Origin: Polytrichum commune
Lineage: Eukaryota; Streptophyta; Polytrichopsida; Polytrichales; Polytrichaceae
DNA length: 64,000 nt
Reading direction: 5' to 3'
NCBI GenBank assembly: GCA_950295325.1
Contig: OX485804.1
Span: 59,552,533-59,616,532, forward strand
A model generated the notes under the pieces. It was not told the DNA's origin, made no database searches, and was given only the letters and a program-made list of their open reading frames with translations. Both the position numbers and the translations under genes were made by a program. Shown piece after piece: positions 1-53,756 of the stretch. Positions within the stretch are counted from its first letter, which is position 1, and every line of letters starts with the position of its first letter.

Positions 1-2277
1 CCTCATCTTCAAAAACTCCTAAGTCCTATCTTCCTACCTCTATTCTGCCTAACTGATCTAACTATCATCCTAACCTAAGAAGAGCGGTGCTTCTTTTGAG
101 CCGCTCCCTCCTTTGACTAGCTGCCTAGCCCACTGATGGCGGATGAGCCGCCTCCCGGCGACGCCTTCTGCAACCGCGTGAGCATCCTCCTCATGTTCGG
201 AGAAGGGGCAATCTCATCCTCCGAGTCCGCTGTTCTCTCGGTCCGCGGTGTTCCGGAAACTGTACTCCCCTTCTGGATGCTCCGGACCGGAGAAGGATCG
301 CTTCCGGTGCGCTGTTCCAGATTCTGCCCGCCCGAGATCGAGGCAGTCCGCGGATCCCTGTTGGAGGCCGCTCTTGAGGGTGGCGGAGGGAATGGGCTAA
401 CCATTTGGCAGTCCGGCGGAGACGACGGCGAGGCTTGGGCCATAGGGGCCTTACCCCTACTCGGAGTTGCCTCTCGATCCGAAGTCTGGTGCCTTATCGG
501 CGTCCTAGGCCTTGTCCGGAGTCCGGGACTGATCCGAGGTCCGCGGAACAGGGGACTGGCCTCGTCCGGATCTAACAGACCCGGTACTCTTCCTCCTCAC
601 CTGGGGAGAACGGATCCTTTCTGGAGCTCTCCCGGAACTAGCAGGCCGAGAGCCGCCTCCCTGCTGGCTGGGTCCTGCAGACGTTGGCGGGTTCTGAACC
701 AGGGCGACTTTACCAACTAGGTCGTAGAGATGCGCCTTGTTGACGATCTCTGCCGGATGCCCCACCAGCTCCCGGATCCGGCTGAAGACCACTGCCTGCT
801 TCGCGTGGTACTTCCGGATCTCTTCGCTCTTCTGACTCAACTCCTAAGTCATGGCCGCTACCTGCGCGGTGAGGTGAGCATTCTCCGTCTTGGCCTGCTC
901 GAGTTCCTTCATGTCTGCCTTCTTGGCCAACTCCCGGAGAATATTTCCGGGTCCGCAGTCGTCCAGGGCCTGGTTCGCTCCTCGGACGATGTGTTCCAGC
1001 CGGTAGTACTGGTTCTGCAGGTCCTCCATCCCCTCCTGGACCCGCTTGAAGGGATTTTCCGGAAAGTCCCAAGCGGATAGATCCACATTCCGCCACGTGG
1101 TCTCCCGGCTAGGGCCGGCTTCCGGATGATAATGAGGGGGAGGGGAGATTGGCCTCTGGAGGGGTGGCGGCGGACTTCCGGGTGAAGAGGGAGGTGCTTC
1201 CGGAATGATGGGGTCGCTGGAAGTCTCCGTCTCGAGGTCTCCTGCTTCCGGATGGAGCTTGTAGGTGACCTCGTCTGCCGCTATCGTCAGCAGGTCCTCC
1301 TCCTCGGCCGTAAAACAGTCAAAGTGCTGATAGAGGTGCAGAATGAAGGGGGAGAGGAAGGAGGGTTTCCGGCCTATATGGGGGAGGGCCCGCCCTACTA
1401 TCTCCTGAATTATCAGACCCCAATTCACTAGCCAGACTCCGGACATAGCACCAAACAGGGTGTTAGCCATGGTAAGGCTAATCCGCTTCGGCTTGTCCGG
1501 GTTAAGGATGGGCATGAGGAACTCTAACACCCTTCGCTCTCTCAAGTTCCGGCAGTTCCCGGGGTGGAAGCCGTCCTTCGGATCCGCGTCCCATCTAAAT
1601 TTTCCGGCGAACAGGCCATCACGGCGTCCGGCCCATCCCTCTGCAATTCCCCTCAGGAACCCGTAGACCCTGTTCCAAACATCCGGAGTCCAATTATCCG
1701 GATCCCTCCTCTTGGTCCCTAGCCACTGATTACCTCTCTCAAACTTAAACTCCCGGAGGGTATCTTCCGCCCGGAGGTTCCAGGGTTTGGCGAGCAACCC
1801 CGCACAGCCCATAACCCGGAGATCCTCCGCTAACTCCTGCAACTCCCTGTCCTCCCTTGGAATTGTAGGAACTAGGGCTTTGAGCGGAATAGGGATGGGT
1901 TCCCTCTGATCCTCTTCCCGTGTTTCCGGCATCTTCCTCTCTTCTCTTAACTTCCGTCTCAATTACGGAAACTCTCTCTCCTCCGGGTACCCTCTCTTCC
2001 GCTCAACTGCTACGGATGTAGAGACATTCTGCATCAGACAACTGCGAGGTGATTTCGGTGACAAAAACATGCACAAGCTAAGAAGCAGCGGCAGCAGCGC
2101 AAGGGGGAGCCGATCGAGGGTAAGGACCAGAGGAGGCCGTGGAGCAAACCGGGAGCGGCCACGTGGCAGGACAGGCTGGGAGCCCAGCTAGGGGAGCTGG
2201 AAGGAGGACTGTGAGCCCAAGAGGGAGAAGGCCGCGAGAATTAGGGCCGGGCCACCTCTCTTTTGTAGGACCCACCA
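1..2277 (-). mobile_element. Gag-like non-autonomous element, copy 1 (left end outside window)
   Basis: This is a minus-strand relative of the elements at 40758-44732 and 51621-55439. It holds a decayed coding frame (117-1962) and a 5' leader to the right of it. The right boundary is tentative. Read on the minus strand from 2277, the sequence starts TGGTGGGTCC, which resembles the TGTGGGAGCC start of the 40758 copy. The element is much richer in GC and in the pentamers CCGGA/TCCGG than the DNA beyond 2300. The 3' end lies off the window, so no target duplication can be tested. No reverse transcriptase or integrase is seen. Confidence 0.6.
117..1962 (-). pseudogene. Gag-like transposon protein, broken
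   Basis: The main frame runs from 1962 down to a TAG at 844-846. The likely ancestral start is the ATG at 1932 (MPETREED). The N-terminal domain carries LLAKPWNLRAE, RRDPDNWTPDVW, DPKDGFHPGNC, ILNPDKPKR and LSPFILHLYQH, all shared with the 41306-43273 protein. The TAG replaces a Gln codon of that copy. The same frame then continues to 505, and after a frameshift the C-terminus (EIAPSPNMRRMLTRLQ) lies in another frame at 117-443. About 60 codons present in the 41306 copy after HLYDQ are missing here. The cellular role is unknown. The order of globular N-domain, coiled coil and basic Pro/Arg-rich tail suggests a gag-like particle protein, but no CCHC knuckle is visible. Confidence 0.65.
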
Positions 2278-24300: not shown

Positions 24301-25779
24301 GAAAGCACACCATCGTGTTATCTCCTACGATTTGGTTAGAAGTTAGAGTGGTGCTCATGCTCATAGGAGAATCAATATCATTACACCATACTTCAAAAGT
24401 GCATTTAAAGAGAAAATCACATAGAGTCACTTTAGAACAATCGTCCAAAAATGGATGTATGTAGCTTAAACACACTTTTTGTGCACGGGGGTTAAGGTGT
24501 TAACTTGCGATACCAAGTTACTATGGTAAAGTCAATTTCACTTAGACAAGTGGATCCCTGTGAGTGCACATGCTATTGTGAAGACTAGGGTGTAAGATGC
24601 TTTTTTAATATTACCAAATGTGATCTTGTTACTTTTTGACCAATAGTATATTTTCTTGTAGCAATTTTAGTCCAATATGACATTCAATATTACATTATTT
24701 GTAATATATTCATGAAATGTTGGGGGATTAATATTGTCACATCAATGAGCCAATTTAGTGTAGTTGAAATCCTAAGCTAGGAATGTTCTTAGGAAGTTAG
24801 AGGAAGTCATTTAGTAGGATGTTCGTTCCACCTTACAACAAGAGCTCCTTGAACTAAGAATTTAAGATTTGTCGCGCAAATACAAACTATAAAATCAAGA
24901 ACACTATGTAGACATTGATGCAAAACTAGCCAATGATGACCAACTTGATAGTCTACAATAACAATGTCTCTAAGACAAAGATATACAAACATTGTGATAT
25001 TATTGTTTCTTAGGGGCAAACATTTAGAGGTAGGCATGTGCCTATTGCAAGTAGAGCATCTCTTGACATAACCAATAGTGTACATTATGCTTGTTGAAGC
25101 TGAATTGCTACTTTAGTGACAATGCCTTTGTCTCAATGATTCATGCTAAGTGTATATAGTTTCACCTGTTTGGTTTGGTATGTTGATGAGCGGGCATGAC
25201 TTAAATGTCTAGCTATGGCTTAAATTAAGCTAACTTTTGTTTCATCATTAAAAGTTGTTAGGGAAGGAATATCGTGCATTAATTGTTGTAAATCTTTGAT
25301 TATGTTGGTTGGTTTCATTGTTGTAGTTCTTTAAGATTGTGTAGTTCAACTCTTAGTTTCGAAATTTTGTTTATCAAGTTGTGTGCATAGTGGAAGGAAA
25401 AGATTGTGTCTTGTCATGGTTAACAATGTGAGTTGTCATGTGAAAAAGGCTAAAGTTGTAAAGGAGAATTGTCATTGTAGAATGGACTATAATTGTATAC
25501 TTTCAGTTAAGCATATTGTATTGATTCCAATTTGAAGAGGTTGTGGTTGGTCCGTTGAATTCATTAGCTTTATACAAATATGAACATTTGATGTTCTAAG
25601 TTTGCTTAGCTTGAGGACATTTGTAGTTTTATTCTCTTCAAATAATGGAAATAATTATTTGTCTAGCATATTGATATATTACATAATTATATTTATTTGT
25701 GATGTTTTGTTTATGATTTTTTAGGAATATATGCAAAGTATGATTTGATGGAAGACGGACAAAGAGGTGGTTTTTTTTT
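21337..25779. other. Spacer with possible retroelement trace
   Basis: There is no supported gene in 4.4 kb. A G-run near 21632-21656 could form a quadruplex. At about 21672-21700 one frame reads LFADDVRLF, which looks like the FADD box of a LINE reverse transcriptase. The frame is otherwise riddled with stops, so only a trace is possible. Confidence 0.3.
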
Positions 25780-27495
25780 ATGAAAATGAAAAATATACAA
25801 GGCTTACTAGAGGAAGTTACAAACTTCCTTAAGGTAGAGAATAAGTCAGAGGTTTTGAATAGTAGGCAATGCGAGAATTTGTTGCTGAATATTCAAAATG
25901 GTGTGGGAACAATTCAAAGCATGATCAATGGTTCTTTTGGGGCGGATGTGTTCTACCAAGTAGAGCAAGAGATGCTTGGTATTATGAAGAAAGCAAGGTA
26001 TATGGTTGAAGAATGTTGCAAGGTTGATGGTTGGTGTCGAGTGGTCGTTATGCAATTGAATAACAAAGAATCCTTCAGAGAACTTCTTTTGGACTTTGAG
26101 TATTGTTTCCACACAATGTGCGAAATATTTTGCCAATCTTTTCCCAATCGCGAAGTTGTAATCCGAGATATGGAAAAGTCTACAACATTCTACCCAACAT
26201 CCATTGATGACGTTGAGCAAGACCAAAATGCAATATTTGAACGACTTTCCAAGCAAGTGGATTTGTGCAAAATTGACAATTGCGAAGATCATTGCATACT
26301 TTTGCCATATTTAATGGAACGAATAAGGGGGTTGCAAAAGGCTGCGGGTGGTGAATTAGATAGCATCATCTTTCCATATATTTATGAACCCCCTAAGTAT
26401 GGGAGGATACCTAAGCCTTTGGGTACGGGGGGGTTTGGGAGTGTATACGCAACCCAATGGTTAGGATTTGAAACTGCTACAAAGGTTATCAAAGTTGATA
26501 ACCCCAAGCATGAAAAAACCGTTTGGAAAGAGGCTAGTATTTTGGGCGGATTGAATCATCCCAACATTATCAAGTTCTTTTGTTGTGGCTCATCAACAGA
26601 ATGCGACACACATGCAGGAGAAAGTAAAAGATTTGAAATCATCATGGAACGAGGAATTATGAGCTTATCAAGCTTTTTGAAACAAGGTATGCTCACAGAA
26701 GCCATGGTAGTTGACATTATGATACAAATTGCAAGTGGAATGTGCTATCTTCATGACATGAAAGTGGCGCATCGTGATTTGAAGCCGGATAATGTTATCT
26801 TGACTTCAATGAGTGGCTCAACATTGGAATATGTGCATGTGAAGATACTTGATTTTGGGATTTCAAAGATTGAAGTGAAAAATTCCCCACAAGTGCCTAC
26901 AAATGAAGGTTGTTTTGGTACTTGCGGATATATGGCACCTGAAGCTCATACAAAACGAACTTCGGAGGTGGATGCATTTAAAACGGATGTGTTTAGTTTT
27001 GGCATGATGTGCTATGAGATTCTTTCAAACAAAAAACTTTACACCGGGAACGTGTTACGTGACTATGTGAGGTTTTTGGAAAATGAGAGACCGGAGTTAC
27101 CCAAAACTTGCTCTAAAGACATGAAATCATTGATACATGAATGTTGGTCTTCGGAACCTTTGGATAGGCCCACATTTCTTGACATTTCTAAGAAGTTAAG
27201 AAAATTGAAAAGTGATGCAATGCTCAAGGTTGCCAATGATGTGAGAGTGCCTAAAATTTTCCACGGGTCCACAATTCCTAGCAATTCCATTGAATATTCA
27301 AAGCGATGGTGGACAATGGTCATAGATAAACTCCATGGACTCAATATATGGCCAATTCTTCTTTTGTGTCAAATGTTTATCACCTTTGCTCAATGGTTGC
27401 CACGTTACTTACCAAATTTCTTGGAGATAGATTCCATTTCGTCATCAAGTGCTCAAGAGAATTCAAACACAACATCAAATAAATTTGATTATGAG
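25780..27495 (+). CDS. Exon 1: MLKL-like N-domain and Ser/Thr kinase
   Basis: 572 codons. Residues 1-200 are helical with no obvious motif and resemble the N-terminal helical region that precedes the kinase in plant MLKL-like/DUF1221 proteins. Residues 205-475 are a complete kinase: GTGGFGSV (215-222), K235 in ATKVIK, E251, HRDLKPDN (331-338), DFG (358-360), GTCGYMAPE (380-388), D403 and R463. All catalytic residues are present, so it should be active. Residues 521-540 (LNIWPILLLCQMFITFAQWL) are strongly hydrophobic and could be a membrane segment or buried helix before a Ser/Asn linker. The start is the ATG at 25780. An upstream ATG at 25748 would be in frame if the T9 run at 25771-25779 had ten Ts. 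Translation through 27496 ends at 27627, which would be an intron-retained, kinase-only form. Confidence 0.85.
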
Positions 27496-28608
27496 GTAAG
27501 CATTGAATTGGGTGAACCTTCATTGTCAAACTTTTACCGTAGTTTAATAGCAGGTTCAGCACAAAATATTTCTAAAAATAGATGCCTAAAATTTTGGAAT
27601 ATTATTGGCATTTTTTGCCGAATATAAAATTAATTATTTTTCAAAATTGCCGAAAAGTAAGAATTTTTTACTTCTCACTAGAGTTTTACTTACAGTGGAA
27701 GCATATGTGAATTTTGAAGGAGAGAAGGTGCTCCTTTTGTAATCAAGCTCACTTACATTAGTCCACAAAGAATATGGGTTAAGAAGTAGCAAGACTCTAG
27801 GTGAGGCTTTTCAAATGTGTTGTACACAAATTTTTGGAGTCCAATTGAGCATAGAAGATGAAGTTTTATAGAATTTTGTCCAACTAACAAAAGTTGAGAA
27901 ATCAATCCTTCTTCCACCTCCAACAAGTTTTGTGTCAAAATAAGTCTTTATGCAAAAGATATGGACAAAACATTGCAGCCGTGTAAAGATCAAAAAATTA
28001 AAATGCGTTCATAACAGTTTTCGGAGCTCATTTGTGCATAGAAGATCAACTTTTTTGGAATTTTGTTGGTCTAAGAAAAGTTTAGAAATCAAGTAATCTT
28101 TCACCTCCAACAAATTTTATGTCATTTGAAGACTCTATGCAAAAGTTATGTGTGTTATAAAAATGAAGTCTAACTAGGTGCTTCACCTCAAAGTTTACAT
28201 ATCCCATATGCATTGTTGAACACAACTCCACTCTACTTGCATAAAGCACAGAGCATTCTCAACTTTTCACTCACATCTTACTTGTCATTCAATGCAAAAG
28301 AGATGTACAAGATATAAGCTTAAATAGAAAACTAAAAATGAATTTAAGTCAAATTTTTTAAAATTAAAAGAGAAAATTGCCGAAAAGATGAATATACTAT
28401 TTTTAGGTGCCAAACCTACTTTTTGAACTTTAATTAAATATTAGGCAGTAAGTTGCCGAACCTGCTAGTAAACTACGGTAGTAAGAGTCTAAAGGTTGTG
28501 CACTGTGATTTTATTGTTTACACTTATCCAAAAATTGGAATTTCTTGACAATCTTCTAGTGAGGTTTGTTACACGTCAATTAAAGATTTCATTTGGCATT
28601 TTATGCAG
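27496..28608 (+). other. Intron 1 with internal tandem duplication
   Basis: Phase-0 intron, donor GAG/GTAAGC, acceptor TTTATGCAG/GTC. It contains two imperfect copies of a roughly 130-bp segment (about 27830-27960 and 28022-28150) that share GAGCATAGAAGAT, GAATTTTGT, CACCTCCAACAA and TATGCAAAAG. Confidence 0.75.
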
Positions 28609-29661
28609 GTCAATAAGGAAACAAAGCAAATCTTTAAATTGATTGGTCTCAAAGGAAAAATATTGGAATTGGAGAAGCAACTTCACCACCTTGGTAGTTT
28701 GGGGATTGTTGGCATGGGAGGACTTGGCAAGTCAACTTTGGCAAATGCTCTGAGCGGCCACATCTCCCATGGATTTGATGCGACATGCTTTGTAGGTGAC
28801 TTTGCATGTGGAAGGTGTACCATTAATGTGAAATACAAACTACAAGATATGAAAGAGCCAACTCAAACCAAAACATTGAAAGAAGGACACAATTTTTTGA
28901 AAAAATTGCAAGAGACAAAAAAAATCCTTATTGTTTTGGACAATGTGGGCAATGCAAAGCAACTTGAAGTACTATTGGGTGATCGCACATGTCTTGATGT
29001 TGATGATAGTAAACTAATTGCTACTTCCCGTAGTTGGGAGTCTTTGAAACGACATGTACCTATAGTTGGTAAAGTAGATATGGAGACCCTTGATAAAGAG
29101 AAATCCAAAGAATTATTTTCCTTCCATGCATTTGGGACCAACCAACCATGCTTGCCATATTTGAAACATGTAGTTGAGAAGATTATAAAGGCTTGTGATG
29201 GGCTTCCTTTGAGTTTGGAGGTGATGGGTAGTTGTTTATATGGAGAAAGGAGGTTGAGAATATGGGAGCGAACTTTACAAAGGTTGTTGAGGGCAAGACA
29301 TGATGGAAGCATAGATGGGAAAATATGGGAAACATTGAGGATTAGCTTTGATGAACTCGGTGAGAAAGAACAAAGTATATTTTTAGACATAACTTGTTTT
29401 TTTTCCAAGGACTCGTGGACTAGTGATTGGATTTATACAAAAGCAACACTACTTAGAATGTTTCATGATGACGTCAAAAGTACCCAACAAACATTGGAAA
29501 GTCTACAAGACAAATCATTGGTGAAATTTCAAGAAAATGGCGTTTTGGAAATACACGATCAATTGCGTGATATGGGCCACATGATTGTTGAAAAAGAGTT
29601 TCAGCAAACTCGAGTTTGGAATATATCCTTGACAACATTCCTCAATTATTGGAATCACAAG
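28609..29661 (+). CDS. Exon 2: NB-ARC domain
   Basis: 351 codons, numbered 573-923 in the joined protein. The motifs occur in the usual order: P-loop GMGGLGKST (about 608-616), kinase-2 ILIVLDNV (about 677-684), RNBS-B SKLIATSR, GLPLSLEVMGS (about 760), RNBS-D-like IFLDITCFF (about 829) and an MHD-type IHDQLRDMG (about 887). The domain should bind ADP/ATP and act as the switch. The last residues after TRVWN read poorly in this frame, while an adjacent frame reads ILDNIPQLLESQ. That looks like the expected end of the domain and suggests an indel near 29620, although the exon phases still fit the main frame. Confidence 0.88.
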
Positions 29662-29768
29662 GTATGATGCATACTATGAATGAGGTTGTTGATTCTTTGG
29701 TACTTTGTTAAAATAATATGATGATAATTGTACTAGAGAATTAATTGCATGTGGTGTTGTACTTGCAG
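29662..29768 (+). other. Intron 2 (107 bp, phase 0)
   Basis: Donor CACAAG/GTATGA and acceptor GTACTTGCAG/AGC. Joining gives HK/SIELVEGLSF, and VEGLSF resembles the V(E/Q)GISL linker that follows the NB-ARC in many NLRs. Confidence 0.7.
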
Positions 29769-29984
29769 AGCATAGAACTTGTGGAAGGCCTTTCATTTAC
29801 TACGTTTGAAAGGAATAATTCTACATTTCAAACAAATGTAAGTGTGAACACTATGAAAAACCTACGATTTCTGAGTGTTCAGATTTGTGAACATATCAAC
29901 ATGCTTTTAGCTATCATTGCCAAAACTGTAACATTGAAATGGTTGAGGATTCATTTTCCAGCTATACATGACAACATTTCATAA
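29769..29984 (+). CDS. Exon 3: linker to the LRRs, ending in TAA
   Basis: 71 codons (SIELVEGLSFTTFERN... MKNLRFLSVQ) with the typical NLR linker 'F..M.NLRFL'. The TAA at 29982-29984 lies in the same frame as the LRR frame that starts at 30000, so a single codon separates them. I found no intron that removes it without creating another stop. Confidence 0.65.
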   Translation, partial: SIELVEGLSFTTFERNNSTFQTNVSVNTMKNLRFLSVQICEHINMLLAIIAKTVTLKWLRIHFPAIHDNIS

Positions 29985-29999
29985 CAACATACATATTTT

Positions 30000-32900
30000 A
30001 TGAACAAATTCATGAACGTTGCTGAAGACCATCTTCAACAATTGGGTGTACTTGAACTATTCAAAATCATCATTTGCACACCCGTTATTTTTCAAAATTT
30101 CCAACCTAAATTCTTGAAAGAATTATCTTTCATGGAGTGCACATTTCCACAAGGGAAATTCCCAATTGGCCTTGGAAACTTAGAATTGGAAGAACTAAAC
30201 ATTATTCGTTGCAAATATCTGAAAACATTACCCAAAGACTTAATCCACTTGACATCTCTAGTCAACTTAACCATCTCACAATGTATGAGCTTGGAGGGGT
30301 TACCTTCCGGAATATGCACTCTCAAGGCATTGGAAGCATTACGATTTTATGAATGCAAATCTTTGAGGAAAATACCGGAAGGGTTGGGGGGGTTGACTTG
30401 TTTGAAGATATTGCACATGTGGGATTGTGAGGCTTTGGAGGAATTTCCTTCCGGAATATGCACTCTCAAGGCTTTGGAGGAATTATCATTCAAAGGATGC
30501 AAATCTTTGAGGAAAATACCGGAAGGGTTGGGGGGGTTGACTTGTTTGAAGATATTGCGCATGTGGGATTGTGAGGCCTTGGAGGAGTTTCCTTCCGGAA
30601 TATGCACTCTCAAGGCTTTGGAGGAATTATCATTCAAAGGATGCAAATCTTTGAGGAAAATACCGGAAGGGTTGGGGGGGTTGACTTGTTTGAAAATATT
30701 GTACATGTCGGATTGTGAGGCTTTGGAAGAGTTTCCTTCCGGAATATGCACTCTCAAGGCTTTGGAGGAATTAAGATTCCATGAATGCAAAACGTTGAGG
30801 ACAATATCGGAAGGGTTTCGGGGGTTGACTTGTTTGAAGAAATTATACATGTGGGATTGTAAGGCCTTGGAAGAGCTCCCTTCCGGAATATGCACTCTCA
30901 AGGCATTGGAGGAATTAGAATTCTCGGGATGCAAATCATTGAGGAAAATACCGGAAGGGTTGGGGGGGTTGACTTGTTTGAAAATATTGTACATGTCGGA
31001 TTGTGAGGCTTTGGAAGAGTTTCCTTCCGGAATATGCACTCTCAAGGCATTGGAAGCATTACGATTTTATGAATGCAAATCTTTGAGGAAAATACCGGAA
31101 GGGTTGCAGGGGTTGACTTGTTTGAAGATATTGCGCATGTGGGATTGTGAGGCTTTGGAGGAATTTCCTTCCGGAATATGCACTCTCAAGGCTTTGGAGG
31201 AATTATCATTCAAAGGATGCAAATCATTGAGGAAAATACCGGAAGGGTTGGGGGGGTTGACTTGTTTGAAAATATTGTACATGTCGGATTGTGAGGCTTT
31301 GGAAGAGTTTCCTTCCGGAATATGCACTCTCAAGGCTTTGGAGGAATTAAGATTCCATGAATGCAAAACGTTGAGGACAATATCGGAAGGGTTTCGGGGG
31401 TTGACTTGTTTGAAGAAATTATACATGTGGGATTGTAAGGCCTTGGAAGAGCTCCCTTCCGGAATCTGCACTCTCAAGGCTTTGGAGGAATTATCATTCA
31501 AAGGATGCAAATCTTTGAGGAAAATACCGGAAGGGTTGGGGGGGTTAACTTGTTTGAAGATATTGGACATGTGGGATTGTGAGGCGCTGGAAGAGTTTCC
31601 TTCCGGAATTTGCACTCTCAAGGCTTTGGAGGAATTATCATTTAAAGGATGCAAATTATTAAGGGAAATACCGGAAGGGTTCGGGGGGTTGACTTGTTTG
31701 AGGGAGTTGTACATGTGGGATTGTGAGGCCCTGGAGGAGTTTCCTTCTGGAATATCCACTCTCAAGGCTTTGGAGGAATTATCATTCAAAGGATGCATAT
31801 CTTTGAGGAAAATACCGGAAGGGTTGGGGGGGTTGACTTGTTTGAAGAGATTATACATGTCGGATTGTGAGGCCTTGGAGGAATTTCCTTCTAGAATATG
31901 CACTCTCAAGGCATTGGAGGAATTAGAATTCTGTGGATGGAAATCATTGAGGACAATACTAGAAGGGTTGGGGGGGTTGACTTGTTTGAAGGTACTATGC
32001 ATGTGGAATTGTGAGGCCTTGGAGGAGTTTCCTCCCGGAATATGCACTCTCAAGGCTTTGGAGTTATTATCATTCAGAGGATGCAAATCTTTGAGGAAAA
32101 TACTAGAAGGGTTGGGGGGGTTGACTTGTTTGAAGATATTGCGCATGTGGGATTGTGAGGCCCTTGAGGAGTTTCCTTCTGGAATATGTACTCTCAAGGC
32201 TTTGGAGGAATTATCATTCAATGGATGCAAATCTTTGAGGAAAATACCGGAAGGGTTGGGGGGGTTGGCTTGTTTGAAGATATTGGACATGTGGGATTGT
32301 GAGGCGCTGGAAGAGTTTCCTTCCGGAATTTGCACTCTCAAGGCTTTGGAGGAATTATCATTTAAAGGATGCAAATTATTAAGGGAAATACCGGAAGGGT
32401 TCGGGGGGTTGACTTGTTTGAGGGAGTTGTACATGTGGGATTGTGAGGCCCTGGAGGAGTTTCCTTCTGGAATATCCACTCTCAAGGCTTTAGAGGAATT
32501 ATCATTCAAAGGATGCAAATCTTTGAGGAAAATATCAGAAGGGATGTGGGGGTTGACTTGTTTGAAGAGATTGGACATGTGGGATTGTGAGGCCCTCGAG
32601 GAGTTTCCTTCCGGAATATGCACTCTCCAGGCTGTAAAGGTATTATCATTCAAAGGATGCAAATCTTTGAGGAAAATACCGGAAGGGTTGGGGGGGTTGT
32701 CTTGTTTGAAGATATTGCGCATGTGGGATTGTGAGGCCCTTGAGGAGTTTCCTTTTGGAATATGTACTCTCAAGGCTTTGGAGGAATTATCATTCAATGG
32801 ATGCAAATCTTTGAGGAAAATACTGGAAGGGTTGGGGGGGTTGACTTGTTTGAAGATATTGCGCATGTGGGATTGTGAGGCCCTTGAGGAGTTTCCTTCT

Positions 32901-33887
32901 GGAATATGTACTCTCAAGGCTTTGGGGAAATTATCATTCAATGGATGCAAATCTTTGAGGAAAATACCGGAAGGGTTCAAGTGGTTGACTTGTTTGAAGA
33001 AATTATACATGTGGGATTGTGAGGCGCTGGAGGAATTTCCTTCCGGAATATGTACTCTTAAGGCTTTGGAGGGATTATCATTTAAAGGATGCAAATCATT
33101 AAGGACAATACCGGAAGGGTTGGGGGGGTTGTCTTGTTTGAAGATATTGCACATGTGGGATTGTGAGGCGCTGGAGGAATTTCCTTCCGGAATATGCATT
33201 CTTAAGGCTTTGGAGGAATTATCATTTAAAGGATGCAAATCATTAAGGACAATACCGGAAGGGTTGGGGGGGTTGTCTTGTTTGAAGATATTGCACATGT
33301 GGGATTGTGAGGCGCTGGAGGAGTTTCCTTCCGGAATATCCACTCTCAAGGCTTTAGAGGAATTATCATTCAAAGGATGCAAGTCTTTGAGGAAAATATC
33401 AGAAGGGATGTGGGGGTTGACTTGTTTGAAGAGATTGGACATGTGGGATTGTGAGGCGCTGGAGGAGTTTCCTTGTGGAATATGCACCCTCAAGGCTTTG
33501 AAGGAATTAAGATTCTACGAATGCAAATCTTTGAGGACAATACCGGAAGGGTTGGGAGGATTGACTTGTTTGAAGAGATTGGGCATAGGGGATTGCGAAG
33601 TCTTGAAGGAGTCTGCTTCCGAAATATGCACTCTTGAGGCTTTGGAGGAATTAGAATTATGTGGATGCAAATTATTGAGGACAATACTAGGAAGGTTGGG
33701 GGGGTTGACTTGTTTGAAGAAATTATACATGTGGGATTGTGAGGCCTTGGAAGAGCTCCCTTCCGGAATATGCATTCTCAAGGCTTTGGAGGTATTATCA
33801 TTGAAAGGGTGCAAATTTTTGAGGAAAATACCAGAAGTGTTGGGGGGGGTTGACTTGTTTGAAGATATTATGCATGTGGGATTGTGA
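30000..33887 (+). CDS. LRR region, about 25 double-LRR units
   Basis: 1,295 codons. After a variable start (to about residue 95) the frame is a tandem array of 48-residue units, each two 24-residue LRRs: LEEFPSGICTLKALEELSF (+KGCKS), then LRKIPEGLGGLTCLKILHMW (+DCEA). The period is 144 bp, a multiple of three, so copy-number changes keep the frame. Variation is concentrated at a few positions in each LRR (SFKGCKS/RFYECKS/EFSGCKS and HMWD/YMSD/RMWD), likely on the ligand face. The frame ends by a frameshift at the G8 run, 33842-33849, where other units have G7; the next unit then meets a TGA. Confidence 0.9.
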   Translation: MNKFMNVAEDHLQQLGVLELFKIIICTPVIFQNFQPKFLKELSFMECTFPQGKFPIGLGNLELEELNIIRCKYLKTLPKDLIHLTSLVNLTISQCMSLEGLPSGICTLKALEALRFYECKSLRKIPEGLGGLTCLKILHMWDCEALEEFPSGICTLKALEELSFKGCKSLRKIPEGLGGLTCLKILRMWDCEALEEFPSGICTLKALEELSFKGCKSLRKIPEGLGGLTCLKILYMSDCEALEEFPSGICTLKALEELRFHECKTLRTISEGFRGLTCLKKLYMWDCKALEELPSGICTLKALEELEFSGCKSLRKIPEGLGGLTCLKILYMSDCEALEEFPSGICTLKALEALRFYECKSLRKIPEGLQGLTCLKILRMWDCEALEEFPSGICTLKALEELSFKGCKSLRKIPEGLGGLTCLKILYMSDCEALEEFPSGICTLKALEELRFHECKTLRTISEGFRGLTCLKKLYMWDCKALEELPSGICTLKALEELSFKGCKSLRKIPEGLGGLTCLKILDMWDCEALEEFPSGICTLKALEELSFKGCKLLREIPEGFGGLTCLRELYMWDCEALEEFPSGISTLKALEELSFKGCISLRKIPEGLGGLTCLKRLYMSDCEALEEFPSRICTLKALEELEFCGWKSLRTILEGLGGLTCLKVLCMWNCEALEEFPPGICTLKALELLSFRGCKSLRKILEGLGGLTCLKILRMWDCEALEEFPSGICTLKALEELSFNGCKSLRKIPEGLGGLACLKILDMWDCEALEEFPSGICTLKALEELSFKGCKLLREIPEGFGGLTCLRELYMWDCEALEEFPSGISTLKALEELSFKGCKSLRKISEGMWGLTCLKRLDMWDCEALEEFPSGICTLQAVKVLSFKGCKSLRKIPEGLGGLSCLKILRMWDCEALEEFPFGICTLKALEELSFNGCKSLRKILEGLGGLTCLKILRMWDCEALEEFPSGICTLKALGKLSFNGCKSLRKIPEGFKWLTCLKKLYMWDCEALEEFPSGICTLKALEGLSFKGCKSLRTIPEGLGGLSCLKILHMWDCEALEEFPSGICILKALEELSFKGCKSLRTIPEGLGGLSCLKILHMWDCEALEEFPSGISTLKALEELSFKGCKSLRKISEGMWGLTCLKRLDMWDCEALEEFPCGICTLKALKELRFYECKSLRTIPEGLGGLTCLKRLGIGDCEVLKESASEICTLEALEELELCGCKLLRTILGRLGGLTCLKKLYMWDCEALEELPSGICILKALEVLSLKGCKFLRKIPEVLGGVDLFEDIMHVGL

Positions 33888-34649
33888 GGCCCTCGAGGAG
33901 TTTCCTTCCGGAATATGCACTCTCAAGGCTTTGGAGGTATTATCATTCATTGGATGCAAATCTTTGAGAACAATATCAGAAGGGTTCAAGGGGTTGACTT
34001 GTTTGAAGAGATTATACATGTGGGATTGTGAGGCCCTGGAGGAATTTCCTTCTGGAATATGCACTCTTAAGGCTTTGGAGGAATTATCATTTAGAGGATG
34101 CAAATCATTAAGGACAATACCGGAAGGATTGGGGGGGTTGACTTGTTTGAAGATATTGCACATGTGGGATTGTGAGGCCTTGGAGGAGTTCCCTTCCGGA
34201 ATATGCACTCTCAAGGCTTTAGAGGTATTATCATTCAATGGATGCAAATCTTTGAGGACAATACTGGAAGGATTGGGTGGGTTGAGTTGTTTGAAGAGAT
34301 TGTATATGTCAGATTTTGAGGCCCTGGAAGAATTTCCTTCAGGCAAATGCACTCTCAAGGCTTTGGAGGAATTATCATTCATAAGATGCAAAAATTTGAG
34401 GACATTACGAGAAGGATTGGGGGGGTTGACTTGTTTGAAGATATTGCATATTTTGGGATTGTGAGGCCTTGGAGGAGTTCCCTTCCGGAATATGCACTCT
34501 CAAGGCTTTGAAGGACTTATCATTTCATGGATGCAAATCTTTGAGGACAATACCGGAAAGGATGTGGGGGTTGACTTATTTGAAAAGATTGGGCATAGGC
34601 AATTGCTAGGCCTTGGAGGAGTTTCCTTACGGAATATATACTTTAAGGG
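33850..34649 (+). pseudogene. LRR array continued in shifted frames
   Basis: Four more double-LRR units run in the next frame to 34464. There GCATATTTTGGGATTG has one base more than the usual GCACATGTGGGATTG, and the array shifts again. A last, degraded unit runs to about 34649 and contains a TAG where GAT TGT GAG is expected. The whole array would encode roughly 60 LRRs if all frames were joined. Confidence 0.8.
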
Positions 34650-39253: not shown

Positions 39254-39953
39254 TCAAATCAATTTATTGAGTTTCGTGAGCCGCACAATGCTCTTATATA
39301 CATTATCGCGAGGGCTAAGTGTTGCATTGCCAATGGGGTTGGACTTAACAAAATCGGGGATGATTCTGGGGTGGAGCACAAGCCTTCTAAGGTAAGGTGC
39401 TAGCCTATGGACCAAAAATGTGTTGTTCCTATTGTCGGTCCATGGATCGGGGAAGATGACGTTGCCCAGGGGGTTCAAAACACTCTTGGATGAGGAGGGT
39501 GTTCTCAAGAGTTGGCTAGCACCCGTGGGGTACCCCCTCCAACAAGGGGATGCCTCGCCACAGTTTGGACCTGAGGACCTTGAGGAACTGTTGTCCTCCA
39601 CCTCGACCACCGAACTTGGGCACCGGTAGACCCTTCTTGTCAAGGAGCTCATCGCATGCCTCTTGGCCGAGGACAAGGCAAAGGCTCGTGAGATCACGGA
39701 ATAAGAAGTTGACGATGGGCTTCGTGTTCTCCATGATCATGGAGCTCCATACGATGACATGAGCAAAGTCGAGCACCTTGCAAAGAAAGTCTCGCAAGCC
39801 GGGACGGGCGCAAACAACCTTGCCGTTTATGAGGGTGTTGAACTCAGCGTCATAGTCCCTCTCGTCAGGATGACGGAAAGGACGCGTGGTGACCTTGGGG
39901 ATGTGTTTGGTGTGACACAACACCCCGTTGAGGTCAAAAACTATGAACGGTTT
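39254..39953 (-). pseudogene. FCP1/NIF-type HAD phosphatase-like pseudogene
   Basis: Reading from 39953 the frame gives KPFIVFDLNGVLCHT, the DxNG form of HAD motif I seen in plant FCP1-like proteins. It continues through NTLINGKVVCARPGLRDFL and AHVIVWSSM (motif II serine) to KFGGRGGGQQFLKVLRSKLW. After a TAG at 39516-39518 the expected NTLLIDD region reads NTLLI and then shifts frame. The C-terminal part (SKSVLNPLGNVIFPDPW, PYLRRL, DFVKSNPIGN) is in the next frame and stops at 39254. The acidic pair of motif IV is missing. Phosphatase activity is therefore unlikely. The 5' end is not resolved: a TGA lies just upstream and no clean acceptor is seen. Confidence 0.75.
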
Positions 39954-40139
39954 GTTTCAGGTCTCAAGTCCACAAGCCAAGGGTTTGCGATCCATCTCTA
40001 GGGGGTCCTTTGATTAACAATTTGATTAGTTTAATGCTATGATCCAGTAAAGAAATTTGCGTCAAACATGAAGATGATGCATTATGGAAAAAGACGAGGA
40101 GCAAGAATAAGATTGTAAGGATAATGTGTTGAAGGATAC

Positions 40140-41257: not shown

Positions 41258-43273
41258 ATGCCGGAAGCGTGAGAGGAAGATGAGAGGGAGCATGTCCTGA
41301 TTCCAATGAAAAACGTATCGCCTGCCATCCCAAAGAGAAAATCTGAGTTGAAGGAGCTCATAGAGGATCTTGGTTGGATGGGTTGCGAGGGGCTACTCGC
41401 CAAACCTTGGAATCTCCGGGCGGAGGCCACCTTACGCGAATTCTTATTCAAGAGAGGCAATCAGTGGTTTAGGATGATTAGGCAGGATCCGGAAAAATGG
41501 ACGGCAGAGGTATGGGCTGGGGTTAACGGATTTCCACGAGGAAAGGGCGAGGGCTGGGCTAGCTGCCGGGATAGTTTTCATGTAGGAAAATTCCGAACGG
41601 AGCCTGATCCGAAAGACGGATTCCATCCCGGGAATTGCCAAAACCCTAGAGAGCGGAGAGTAATAGAATTCATCCTCCCCATCCTTAATCCGGAAAAACC
41701 CAAGCGGCTTAGCATTACCATGGCCAACACCCTGTTCGGAGCGATGTCCGAGGTCCGGCCCGTCAAATGGGATACGTTAATTCAGGAGTATGTGGAGAAA
41801 TCTCTCCCCCACATTGGCCAGAAACCCTCCTACCTCTCTCCCTACATCCTCCATCTCTACCAGCACCACGGCTGCGTCAATGAAGCGGAAGAGGATATGC
41901 TGACGATAGCGGAAGACGAGGTGGTGTACAAGCTCGGTCTGGAAGTCGAGGTTGCGGAAACCGGAACAGAAAATTCGAGTGACACCGCGGTTCCGGAACC
42001 ACCTCCCGCTTCGCCCCCTCCGAAAGTCCGGAAACCAGCCTCACCACCACCACGACAGGAAGCTGGAACCAGCTGGGAAGTTCCCTGGAGAGACATCGAC
42101 CTATCGACGTTTGAGTTTCCAGAAGCCCCCTTCAAGCGCGTCCGGGAGGAGTTGACGGAACTCCATAACCAATATTTCCGGATGGAACATATCACTCGTG
42201 GGGTGAACCGGGCCTTAGACAACTGTGGACCCGGAAATATCCTCCGGGAGTTGGCCAAACGGACGGACCGGAAGCAGGTAGAGACCCTAGAGACGGAGAA
42301 GGCGCAGCTCGCAGCGCAAGTGGCTGCTATGACACAGGAGCTCACCCAGAAGAGCGAGGAGATCCAGAAGTACCAGGCGGAACAAGCTGTAGTCCTAAGC
42401 CGGGTCCGGGAATTAGTGGGCCATCCGGGAGAAGTCGTCAACAAGGCGCACCTCTATGACCAATTAATGGAGTCAGCGGATCCGTCTTCCACCCAACCAA
42501 CGCTCCAAATCCTGGTGAAGTACTCCCGCTCGATGAAGGATCTGCTCAAGGAGATCCATAAGCTTCTGCCTCCGAGTGGTACCCCCAGACGGATGCTCTA
42601 TCCGGGTGCACCCAAATCTCCAACGGGCACGCTGTATGAGGTTATAGGGGACGTTGAGCTAGTTCTGGCCTCTCAGGCGGGTGCGGGGCCCAGTCAGCCA
42701 GCAGGAACTTCCAAGCCACCGGAATCCAGAAGATTTCCGGATCGGGAGAAGACTCCTGTTCCGGAACGGACCCGCTCATCCCAGGTTCGACGGAAGAACA
42801 CAAAACGGTCAGCCAGATCCAGATGTGGGCAATCACCGAATCCGGATCGGGGCAGGACATCAGAGCGGTCCACAACACCGGAGAGGGCCAGAACTCAGGA
42901 AAGGATGAGGACACCGGATCGGACGAAGACTCCGGATTGGGGTAAGGCACCGATATCGCAGGTCTCGCCAGCTCCTGCTCCAGATTGTATGATAGTGGAG
43001 CAGTGGGCGCCCCCACCCTCACACGTTATGTTAGCTAGGGATCCCTGGACGACTTCAGTTTTTTGTGGCCGAAACAGGGAGCGGACCACCGGACGTGACC
43101 CTTCACCCGTCCAGAGCTCCCGGAAGGAGAAGAAGGCTTCCGAAACATCGCGGCCCGGATCGGGTGATGGATCAGGAGAGGATCCGTCCGCTGTAGGCGA
43201 TTCTGAGGAAGAAATCGCCCCCTCCCCAAACATGAGGAGGGTATTTACGAGGCTGCAAGAACGTCGGCTTTGA
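41258..43273 (+). CDS. Gag-like transposon protein
   Basis: The open frame runs from 41306 to 43273 (655 codons). The ancestral start was probably the ATG at 41258 (MPEA), because copy 1 reads MPETREEDQREP there. Here a TGA at 41270-41272 replaces an Arg codon, so translation would have to begin at 41306. N-terminal domain: LLAKPWNLRAEATLREF, DPEKWTAEVW, DPKDGFHPGNC, ILNPEKPKR, HIGQKPSYLSPYILHLYQHH. A coiled coil follows at about residues 325-375 (LETEKAQLAAQVAAMTQELT). Then comes a basic, Arg/Pro/Ser-rich region with repeated R(T/S)PxR(A/T)(K/R)T-like words, and a C-terminus EIAPSPNMRRVFTRLQ. No zinc knuckle, protease or RT. The role as a particle or nucleic-acid-binding protein is inferred from the layout only. 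Confidence 0.7.
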
Positions 43274-51245: not shown

Positions 51246-51830
51246 TTGGACACGGGTAGATCACTCTAAGGCATTTTTGTGCACCACGTGTGGCTGGGGG
51301 TTTTTTGTTTTGGGGCTATTTACCTTCAAGGGTTGAATTAAAGCCTCCCTATAATTATTTAAATTTCAAAAATGACCCATTTGTTTGCACCCTTCCATTA
51401 CTTATATTGTCCAAGTCACTGCAATTTTTTGTACTCTATATTCATTTTAAGTAATTTTGGACAGACGGAAATTCCAATTATCATCCATCCCCATGAGTCC
51501 TAAACCCATTTACATACCATACTAAACATACCTTCTATGATCTTTATCTTCAACCCCTATATTAATTTTACAAAAAATAATGGCCCACGTTTTATGTCCA
51601 TCTAACTTACTTATAATGGGTGTCGCGGCCCATCTTTTCTTAAAATCTTAAGAAACCTTGTTTTAAGATTAAGGAATAGATTTAAGCGAGGAAAACATAG
51701 TAAGTAGAGTATTTTATTGGTAGATAGTTAGGTAGGCTAGTTAGAATTGAGGAGAAAAACTAAAATCATTAAAGTAGTTAAAAATACCGAATTGAGTTAG
51801 TGTTAGGAATTCCGTTTCGACTCGGAAACC

Positions 51831-53756
51831 TTGGAACGGAGCGGACCGCACCGGCGACGGCGGGCCGCAACCACTATGGCCACCCAAACACGGAAGTGGA
51901 TCGCGGACAAGCCGCTAGCCCTCCGCAAGGTGCACGTGGTCACCACCACTAGTAGAGAAGAGAACGATGAGTTGGAGGCAGACTTGAGGCGCATGGGCTG
52001 CCTCGGGTTATGGGAAAAATCGTGGAGAGTACGCTCTGAGGGGATGGTGAGGGAGTTAGTCACGGGAGAGGTGGACCACGTTTACGTTTCCACCATCCGG
52101 GGCCGACCGGATAGGTGGAATGCGGAATTGTGGAGTCGGGTTTACGGCTTCGAGCAAGGAGGGGAAGGTATGGCCACTAAGCGAGAGGATTGTACGAGGG
52201 ACAAATTCTCCCAGAGGCTAGACCCCAAGTATGGATATTTTGTGAAAGATTGTAAAGATGAGAGGGAAAAGAGGATGTTAGTTTTTCTAGTGCCTATCTT
52301 CAACCCGGAAAAGTCTTATAACATCACTCTTACACTTGCCACCATCTTACTTCTTGCATACTCCGAGAAGAAGGTGGTGGATTGGGGGAGCATCATTGGA
52401 GAGTTGGTGCACAAGTTGGCAACCAACACTAAGCGCGGCCTACCTTCCTACATAGGGTCTTTCCTCTTCCACCTTTACGCACACGAAAACCTACTCACAG
52501 ACGAAGAGGATACCCTATGGACATCGCATCGGTTTATGCGGGAGCTCCAGACTACCGACTCGGAGCCGGAGATGGGTCATGAGGATTCGAAGGAGAAAGA
52601 CGTGGTGGAGATGAGCGACAAAGAGCGGTCCGTGACCAAGAAGCGGAAACTAATGTTGGGGAATCGTGCGACGCGGACCAGGTCCGCCACCAAGCCGGTA
52701 GGAGGTGAAACCTCCACCTTATCCTTGGAGGACAATCCAGTGGACTCCATTATCCGCGACTTGGAGGGAGTACGGTCCCGGATTGTGGACTATGAGCTAC
52801 AAATGCACCAAGTAGGGGAATTGGTGGGCAACCCGCCGCGGGAGGGTTTGGTTGCCGCAATAAAGGAGGCCATCCAAGATCCGCGTCGGCTGCGGGAGCT
52901 GGAGCGGAAAGTGGACCACCTTACTGCGGAAATGCGGAAGACCGCGGAGCGAGTGCGGAAGTTGGAGGTGGAGCGAGAGAAACTCCTTAAGCAGGTAAAG
53001 GATACCACTCTCACGGTACAAAAGTTGAGTGATATGTTGGAAATCCCGGGGAACGTGTGGTGAAAAGCCAAGATGTTCGACGCGGAATTGAAGAACGCGG
53101 GCCACGTTTCCGGGTCGAAGATGGTTACCTTCATCATGGATCAAGGGAGTAAGATGGACGCGTCCTTGAAAGCAATGAAGGCCCTCATTGCTGGTTGCAC
53201 GGAGTTGTTTCCCGTGGTAGTTGAGTAATCGGAAGAGAGGGAGTCTTCATCCGACTACTCCGACTTGACCCCTCATGACATGGTGAAAATTCAAGGTGCC
53301 GCGGTGGAAGGTGTAAACCAACATACGGAAGAGGTGGACCAGGTGGAGGACATCACGGCGATCACGGCTCTCCCGGTTTCCACCACTGAGATATTAGTTC
53401 CCAAGGCCACCCCAGTTTCCGCCGCGGTTGGTGAGGAAACCTTGAGTGATTGCCATGTGGCCGAGATTTCAACTCCAACCCTTGCCACGGACTTCCAAGT
53501 GGTTATCCGGGATCCGCCGCCACTTGCCATTCTTGCTCCGGAATTTCCGCCGGACAACCAACTATCCGCCCGACTGGCACCGGACGTTGCGGAAACGGTG
53601 GACCGCGTGGGAGTGAGTTCCGCGCCGAATGCTCACGATGTGCAAGTGGCGCCACCACGTGCTCTATTTTTGGCAACGGACAGCGCGGATCGCCGCGAGG
53701 AGCGGAAGCAGAATAAGAAGGAAGCCAAGTTGAAGAAGCGGAAGGATAAGGAGTAG
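51831..53756 (+). pseudogene. Gag-like transposon protein, two in-frame stops
   Basis: One continuous frame of about 640 codons is interrupted by TGA at 53061-53063 and TAA at 53226-53228 with no frameshift. The likely start is the ATG at 51876 (MATQTRKW); 51831 is a non-ATG in-frame extension. The N-domain matches the other copies: LEADLRRMGCLGLWEKSWRV, RPDRWNAELWSRVYGF, LDPKYGYFVKDC, IFNPEKSYNITLTLA and GLPSYIGSFLFHLYAHENL. A coiled coil (LRELERKVDHLTAEMRKTAE) precedes the stops. The C-terminal part is Pro/Val/Ala-rich and ends in a strongly basic KKEAKLKKRKDKE tail. Absence of frameshifts suggests recent inactivation. Confidence 0.75.

Follow-up and report, generated by a model that had tools for sequence, protein, structure and literature searches.

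The window analysed here, a stretch of 64,000 nucleotides (nt; C2:59552533-59616532), carries one copy of a large immune-receptor family, apparently of moss origin: the named closest relatives of the predicted protein in a protein sequence search come from Physcomitrium, Ceratodon and Sphagnum. The locus almost certainly belongs to the PNL class of mosses, named in 2012 by Xue et al. (PMC3352924), in which a protein kinase (PK), a nucleotide-binding site (NBS) and leucine-rich repeats (LRR) follow each other. The likely explanation of the whole is a PNL-class locus with three exons, encoding (i) a HeLo bundle, a brace and a kinase, (ii) an NB-ARC domain and a winged helix and (iii) the LRR, with a stop codon before the LRR array (Table 1). 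According to structure prediction, its N-terminus very probably has the type of fold known from the necroptosis protein MLKL. As a gene, this is an ordinary PNL-class copy whose LRR is broken; more interesting is the class itself, where an MLKL-type module whose kinase is complete stands on a nucleotide-binding LRR receptor (NLR).

An MLKL-like module with a complete kinase

Residues 1-205 were modelled as an MLKL/HeLo bundle, and the N-terminal four-helix bundle and brace that characterize the MLKL family are thus present by predicted fold. In a structure comparison, the exon 1 model aligned with Arabidopsis MLKL3 over 432 residues, and the Foldseek listing for whole exon 1 held one MLKL (4btf, rank 2) among its best 50 rows. 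The initial annotation had described this region as MLKL/DUF1221-like, which the fold model supports. By sequence, the Pfam results are negative for this protein: neither MLKL_N (PF22215) nor DUF1221 (PF06760) matched the protein itself at E <= 1, residues 1-200 included, and MLKL_N was reached via a relative alone, P0036, which passes PF22215. A search with the N-terminus of the Sphagnum protein P0068 returned seven proteins, the named ones all from Sphagnum, and gave no direct sequence link to MLKL.

The kinase retains its Gly loop, K235, E251, HRD (331-333), DFG (358-360) and APE (386-388), in agreement with the initial annotation, which had listed every catalytic residue as kept; from these motifs it is predicted to be active. 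K235, E251, H331 and others are invariant across 64 aligned relatives, and R332, D333 and DFG nearly so. The Gly loop is degenerate in some relatives (P0006, P0032). Since the catalytic residues are complete and an NB-ARC domain is present, the protein is MLKL-like and is not classed as MLKL, a family with a C-terminal pseudokinase and no NB-ARC. It shares with the plant MLKLs (AtMLKL2, 6lba; AtMLKL3, 6ka4) the HeLo bundle, the brace and the aligned kinase fold, but differs from them by its complete kinase residues, by the NB-ARC and LRR that follow and by an identity of 23%. A closer parallel in this respect is wheat Pm13, a disease resistance protein in which an MLKL_NTD precedes a kinase with all key residues (PMC10951266), unlike the Arabidopsis MLKL pseudokinases; Pm13, however, has 476 residues and neither NB-ARC nor LRR.

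Two other observations concern this module. The relatives P0036 and P0037 carry two HeLo-kinase units in tandem, with no NB-ARC among their listed domains. Moreover, a hydrophobic, aromatic-rich helix (27331-27402; best 19-residue mean 1.51) lies between the kinase and the NB-ARC and is also found in some relatives; it is too weak for a membrane span to be called.

Kinase and NB-ARC exons form one gene

Copies were sought in a genome of 408 Mb (64 contigs). All 150 candidates scored with the N-terminal query, out of 385, proved to match, so that at least 150 matches are listed; two of these are fragments of a single copy and several are interrupted by stops. Pairing was carried out between 50 of the 150 N-terminal matches and 56 of the 113 matches to a 161-residue segment spanning the stop codon. 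For each query, the 27 best matches, the window among them (79-100% and 72-100% identity), fall into one-to-one pairs, at 2,943-3,075 bp in 26 copies and at 3,989 bp in the window, and the order of the modules is kept in 27/27. Of the 23 N-terminal matches that rank next (52-57% identity), 20 have their partner at 2,935-3,113 bp; for two more the partner lies as far away as 14.6 and 15.9 kb, and the last is unpaired within the matches used.

In all 27 close copies, exon 2 is free of stops and bounded by the acceptor ATG[CT]AG/GTC and the donor AAG/GTATGA (slash, splice junction); it has 351 codons in 26 of them and 362 in L032. The search pattern for the second acceptor matched in 25/27 (unmatched, L033 and L034). 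Four copies were fetched further upstream, and each of them has an open exon 1 (1632-1731 nt) with junctions in phase 0 as here. Furthermore, P0006, a metagenome protein of 1166 residues (51% identity, 98% coverage), reads across both junctions with no intron residues; as this resembles a transcript, we infer that it derives from cDNA. The kinase and NB-ARC exons are one gene because the order is kept in 27 copies, the exon-2 splice sites are kept and both introns are in phase 0, and the exon ends (27495 and 28609) and GTAAGC donor given by the initial annotation agree with the sites and phases found.

That annotation had been cautious about the 1.1-kb gap between the exons, which could suggest that two separate genes, one for a kinase and one for an NB-ARC protein, are chance neighbours. 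This is extremely improbable: intron 1 measures 1,113 nt in the window but 157-168 nt in the four fetched copies, with equal phase-0 junctions, and P0006 spans the junction. Since the intron is short elsewhere and an inverted-repeat element lies in it here, the gap is accounted for by an insertion, whose features resemble those of a non-autonomous DNA transposon. Two neighbouring genes are therefore ruled out by the order and spacing in 27 copies together with the short introns.

Relation to known receptor classes

The Pfam matches of the locus are to Pkinase (5.9e-44), NB-ARC (4.2e-23), a Roq1-type winged helix (5.2e-9) and, strongly, LRR. Chance does not account for its 627-codon stop-to-stop frame: mononucleotide shuffling of 25000-29700, repeated 200 times, gave frames of 172 codons at most. 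As in the PNL class (PMC3352924), the genomic sequence places a kinase N-terminal to the NBS in one gene, and the two introns that separate the NBS from the kinase and from the LRR are both in phase 0; the named matches include kinase-NB-ARC proteins of P. patens. It differs from the class as described by its 30.2 LRR units of 144 nt, interrupted by a stop, and by a HeLo-like domain that goes unmentioned in the available text of that paper. TNLs such as Roq1 (7jlu, 7jlv) provide the closest solved NB-ARC by sequence (3.4e-34) and share the winged helix and an NBS/LRR intron, but a kinase module stands here in place of their TIR. TNLs are defined by an N-terminal TIR and a phase-2 intron before the NBS (PMC3352924); a TNL is therefore ruled out, TIR being absent and the intron in phase 0.

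The kinase-NBS-LRR architecture is already known, and kinase-NLRs were surveyed in 2023-2024 (PMC10952240, PMC11218826). Like the Pkn-NLRs, which include wheat Tsn1 and the source of a P. patens kinase domain (PMC11218826), our locus carries its kinase N-terminal on an NLR; in the available part of that survey, the kinase domain is not linked to MLKL and the monocot kinase-NLRs fall in another clade. A reading of the PNL N-terminus as an MLKL-type module whose kinase is complete was found nowhere in the literature searched (available text, including PMC11218826, PMC10952240, PMC9950082, PMC7145615 and PMC10951266; supplements, preprints and most subscription papers lay outside the search), a faint hint that it may be new.

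The LRR array and its interruption

In this copy, an in-frame TAA (29982-29984) precedes the LRR array, and the frame slips twice within the array, near 33.85 and 34.46 kb, with more stops after the first slip. The initial annotation had recognised all the modules but not this stop, and its fusion of a kinase, an NB-ARC and a giant LRR is not supported for this copy; the PK-NBS-LRR architecture holds for the family, but here no single open frame joins the LRR to the NB-ARC, and the end given for the gene (34649) falls in a stretch holding several stops. The LRR is probably untranslated in this copy.

The break, if real, is probably recent, since the 161-residue segment is open in 25/27 close copies, the exceptions being the window (TAA) and C3:2245331 (TGA), and since the 1300-codon LRR frame contains no further stop, although about 2.7 would be expected per 1% of neutral change. 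In L016, a stop appears later (codon 239 of exon 3). The segment belongs to open frames of 246 to 2,175 codons in the 27 close copies (1,380 in the window, counted through its stop), hence the family holds long LRR arrays and short ones as well. Intact copies exist: no stop interrupts exon 1, exon 2 or the 2,175-codon exon-3 frame of L017/L040.

A third intron, leading from a cryptic phase-0 donor (GTAAGT, 29838) to an in-frame acceptor past the TAA, might rejoin the LRR. On home-made splice-site scores, this donor reaches 8.6 (the two regular donors of the gene score 9.9 and 9.0) and acceptors that keep the frame exist, but the best of them scores 1.5 against 5.0 and 3.1 for the gene's own; moreover, the segment around the stop is open in 25/27 close copies and is read through as coding in P0006 and P0121. 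Such rejoining is highly unlikely, and was rejected for its weak acceptors despite the good donor. Sequence errors in an otherwise intact gene are scarcely more probable: homopolymer runs hold both the start-codon shift and the slip near 33,850, but not the TAA. As a separate observation, residues 431-1138 of P0121, a metagenome protein probably on the same contig as P0008, extend a PNL-type LRR exon by about 700 residues with hydrophobic stretches and LRR-only Pfam matches; nothing in the window corresponds to these final 708 residues (a single match, E 4.9).

Among 23 whole in-frame LRR units of the 30.2, the ratio of nonsynonymous to synonymous variation (pN/pS) is 0.42 in the coding frame versus 0.98 and 1.22 in the other two. 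It reaches 2.0 at ten strand positions of the LxxLxLxx pattern versus 0.24 elsewhere. This contrast was matched by 4/5000 random position choices, which is not a clean probability, the positions having been fixed after the variation table was seen. On this pattern of variation, the strand positions look like a diversified recognition surface.

State of this copy

The predicted product is a HeLo-kinase-NB-ARC protein of 994 residues without LRR. Because the TAA leaves no in-frame C-terminal LRR, it is filed as PN-type and not as an intact PNL; it would be either such a member of the class or a fresh pseudogene. LRR-less PN genes make up 18/45 PNL-class genes in P. patens (PMC3352924), and such forms are therefore common, functional or not.

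That this copy is simply dead and its truncated product functionless is a serious possibility, if somewhat short of even. The stop before the LRR, the two later slips, the out-of-frame upstream ATG and the intron 1 insertion all point to it, as does decay in other copies (C3:2245331, with a stop in the same segment, and L016). However, exons 1 and 2 are free of stops, and their ratios of nonsynonymous to synonymous substitution (dN/dS) are below 1 and in the range seen between other copies: 0.37-0.68 (exon 1) and 0.39-0.47 (exon 2) for the window versus four copies, 0.41-0.81 and 0.38-0.67 among those four. These two exons thus look constrained. Any death would be recent, since stops expected per 1% of neutral change number about 0.9 in exon 1 and 0.5 in exon 2, besides those of the LRR frame. 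If expressed, this copy would yield a protein lacking its sensor, being either a newly defunct receptor or a retained truncated signalling form.

Proposed function of the class

For the family, the LRR surface would sense a pathogen cue, the NB-ARC would then exchange its nucleotide and the protein oligomerise, the clustered kinases would phosphorylate one another or the brace, and the HeLo bundles, once released, would attack the membrane, as MLKL does. We infer this order of events from plant resistosomes and MLKL, the anatomy alone being observed. Membrane attack by the HeLo bundle as the output is plausible, at just under an even chance. A somewhat less probable output is the kinase itself, which would be activated by NB-ARC clustering and phosphorylate partners, the bundle being a scaffold or an autoinhibitor. 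The near-complete conservation of the catalytic residues in the 64 relatives favours a kinase output, as does the requirement of the HRD motif for the response of the kinase-NLR Tsn1 (PMC11218826); nevertheless, the bundle is kept together with the kinase across the family and is modelled as an MLKL fold, and the Gly loop is degenerate in P0006 and P0032. In the same 2024 survey, the P. patens kinase domain gave a modest and variable response in N. benthamiana, and a 2023 review considers that direct involvement of the kinase domain in kinase-NLRs still needs evidence (PMC10952240). An MLKL-type fold before the kinase would turn this into a direct question, whether the bundle or the kinase kills.

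We lean slightly towards the view that the whole moss PNL class is an MLKL-NLR, i.e. a HeLo-brace-kinase module with a still catalytic kinase built into an NLR, with at least 150 matches in one genome. If so, one polypeptide would do the sensing, the switching, the activation of the kinase and the killing at the membrane, and the plant MLKL pseudokinases could be relatives of the module without the NLR half. A single protein would then link plant NLRs with MLKL, alongside the fungal NLRs in which MLKL/HeLo-like domains occur (PMC10952240).

The family in the genome

Among the more distant relatives, 36 of the 150 N-terminal and 39 of 126 NB-ARC matches, picked by hand, were compared. At least 19 of these 36 most distant listed N-terminal matches (29-37% identity) sit 1.7-2.3 kb 5' of an NB-ARC match, the count being a lower bound. 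Four distant matches (29-31%; C6:1565204, C2:1321355, C2:629665 and C6:2728445) lie in single open frames of 1,497-2,433 codons and possibly represent another architecture. The region C6:28.87-33.08 Mb carries 17/27 close copies, and the window copy is alone in its part of C2.

Table 1. Features of the PNL-class locus (positions in the window)
Feature	Position	Strand	Remarks
Upstream ATG	25748..25779	+	out of frame with ATG 25780; in frame in P0001, P0002 and copy L042
Exon 1, 572 codons: MLKL-like HeLo bundle, brace, protein kinase	25780..27495	+	phase 0 end, donor GTAAGC
HeLo/MLKL-type helical domain and brace (predicted)	25789..26343	+	model residues 4-188
Protein kinase domain, full catalytic set	26413..27189	+	residues 212-470
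Intron 1, phase 0, GTAAGC...TATGCAG, 1113 nt	27496..28608	+	acceptor TTTTATGCAG before 28609
Insertion, 27-nt terminal inverted repeats (93%), TA on both sides	27535..28480	.	absent from four fetched copies
Exon 2, 351 codons, phase 0	28609..29661	+	open frame
NB-ARC domain	28687..29301	+	exon 2 residues 27-231
Roq1-type winged-helix domain	29353..29592	+	exon 2 residues 249-328
Intron 2, phase 0, GTATGA...CTTGCAG	29662..29768	+	GT-AG sites
Exon 3 start, 71 codons	29769..29981	+	open frame up to TAA
In-frame TAA closing the predicted protein at 994 residues	29982..29984	+	frame reading
LRR-coding frame, 1300 codons, 3' of TAA	29985..33887	+	closes at stop after frame slip near 33,850
LRR array, 30.2 units of 144 nt, each with two 24-residue repeats	30290..34637	+	tandem repeat
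LRR array carried on in second frame	33823..34464	+	third-frame matches to relatives from 34,460

Other features of the window

Three related long open reading frames (ORFs) are found at 844-1962 (-), 41273-43273 (+) and 51807-53063 (+), the outer two sharing 62% and 35% identity with the middle ORF. They have no Pfam match above the cut-off and perhaps encode mobile-element proteins. In addition, the ORF at 39516-39956 (-) matches the NLI-interacting-factor-like phosphatases (PF03031, 3.4e-9).
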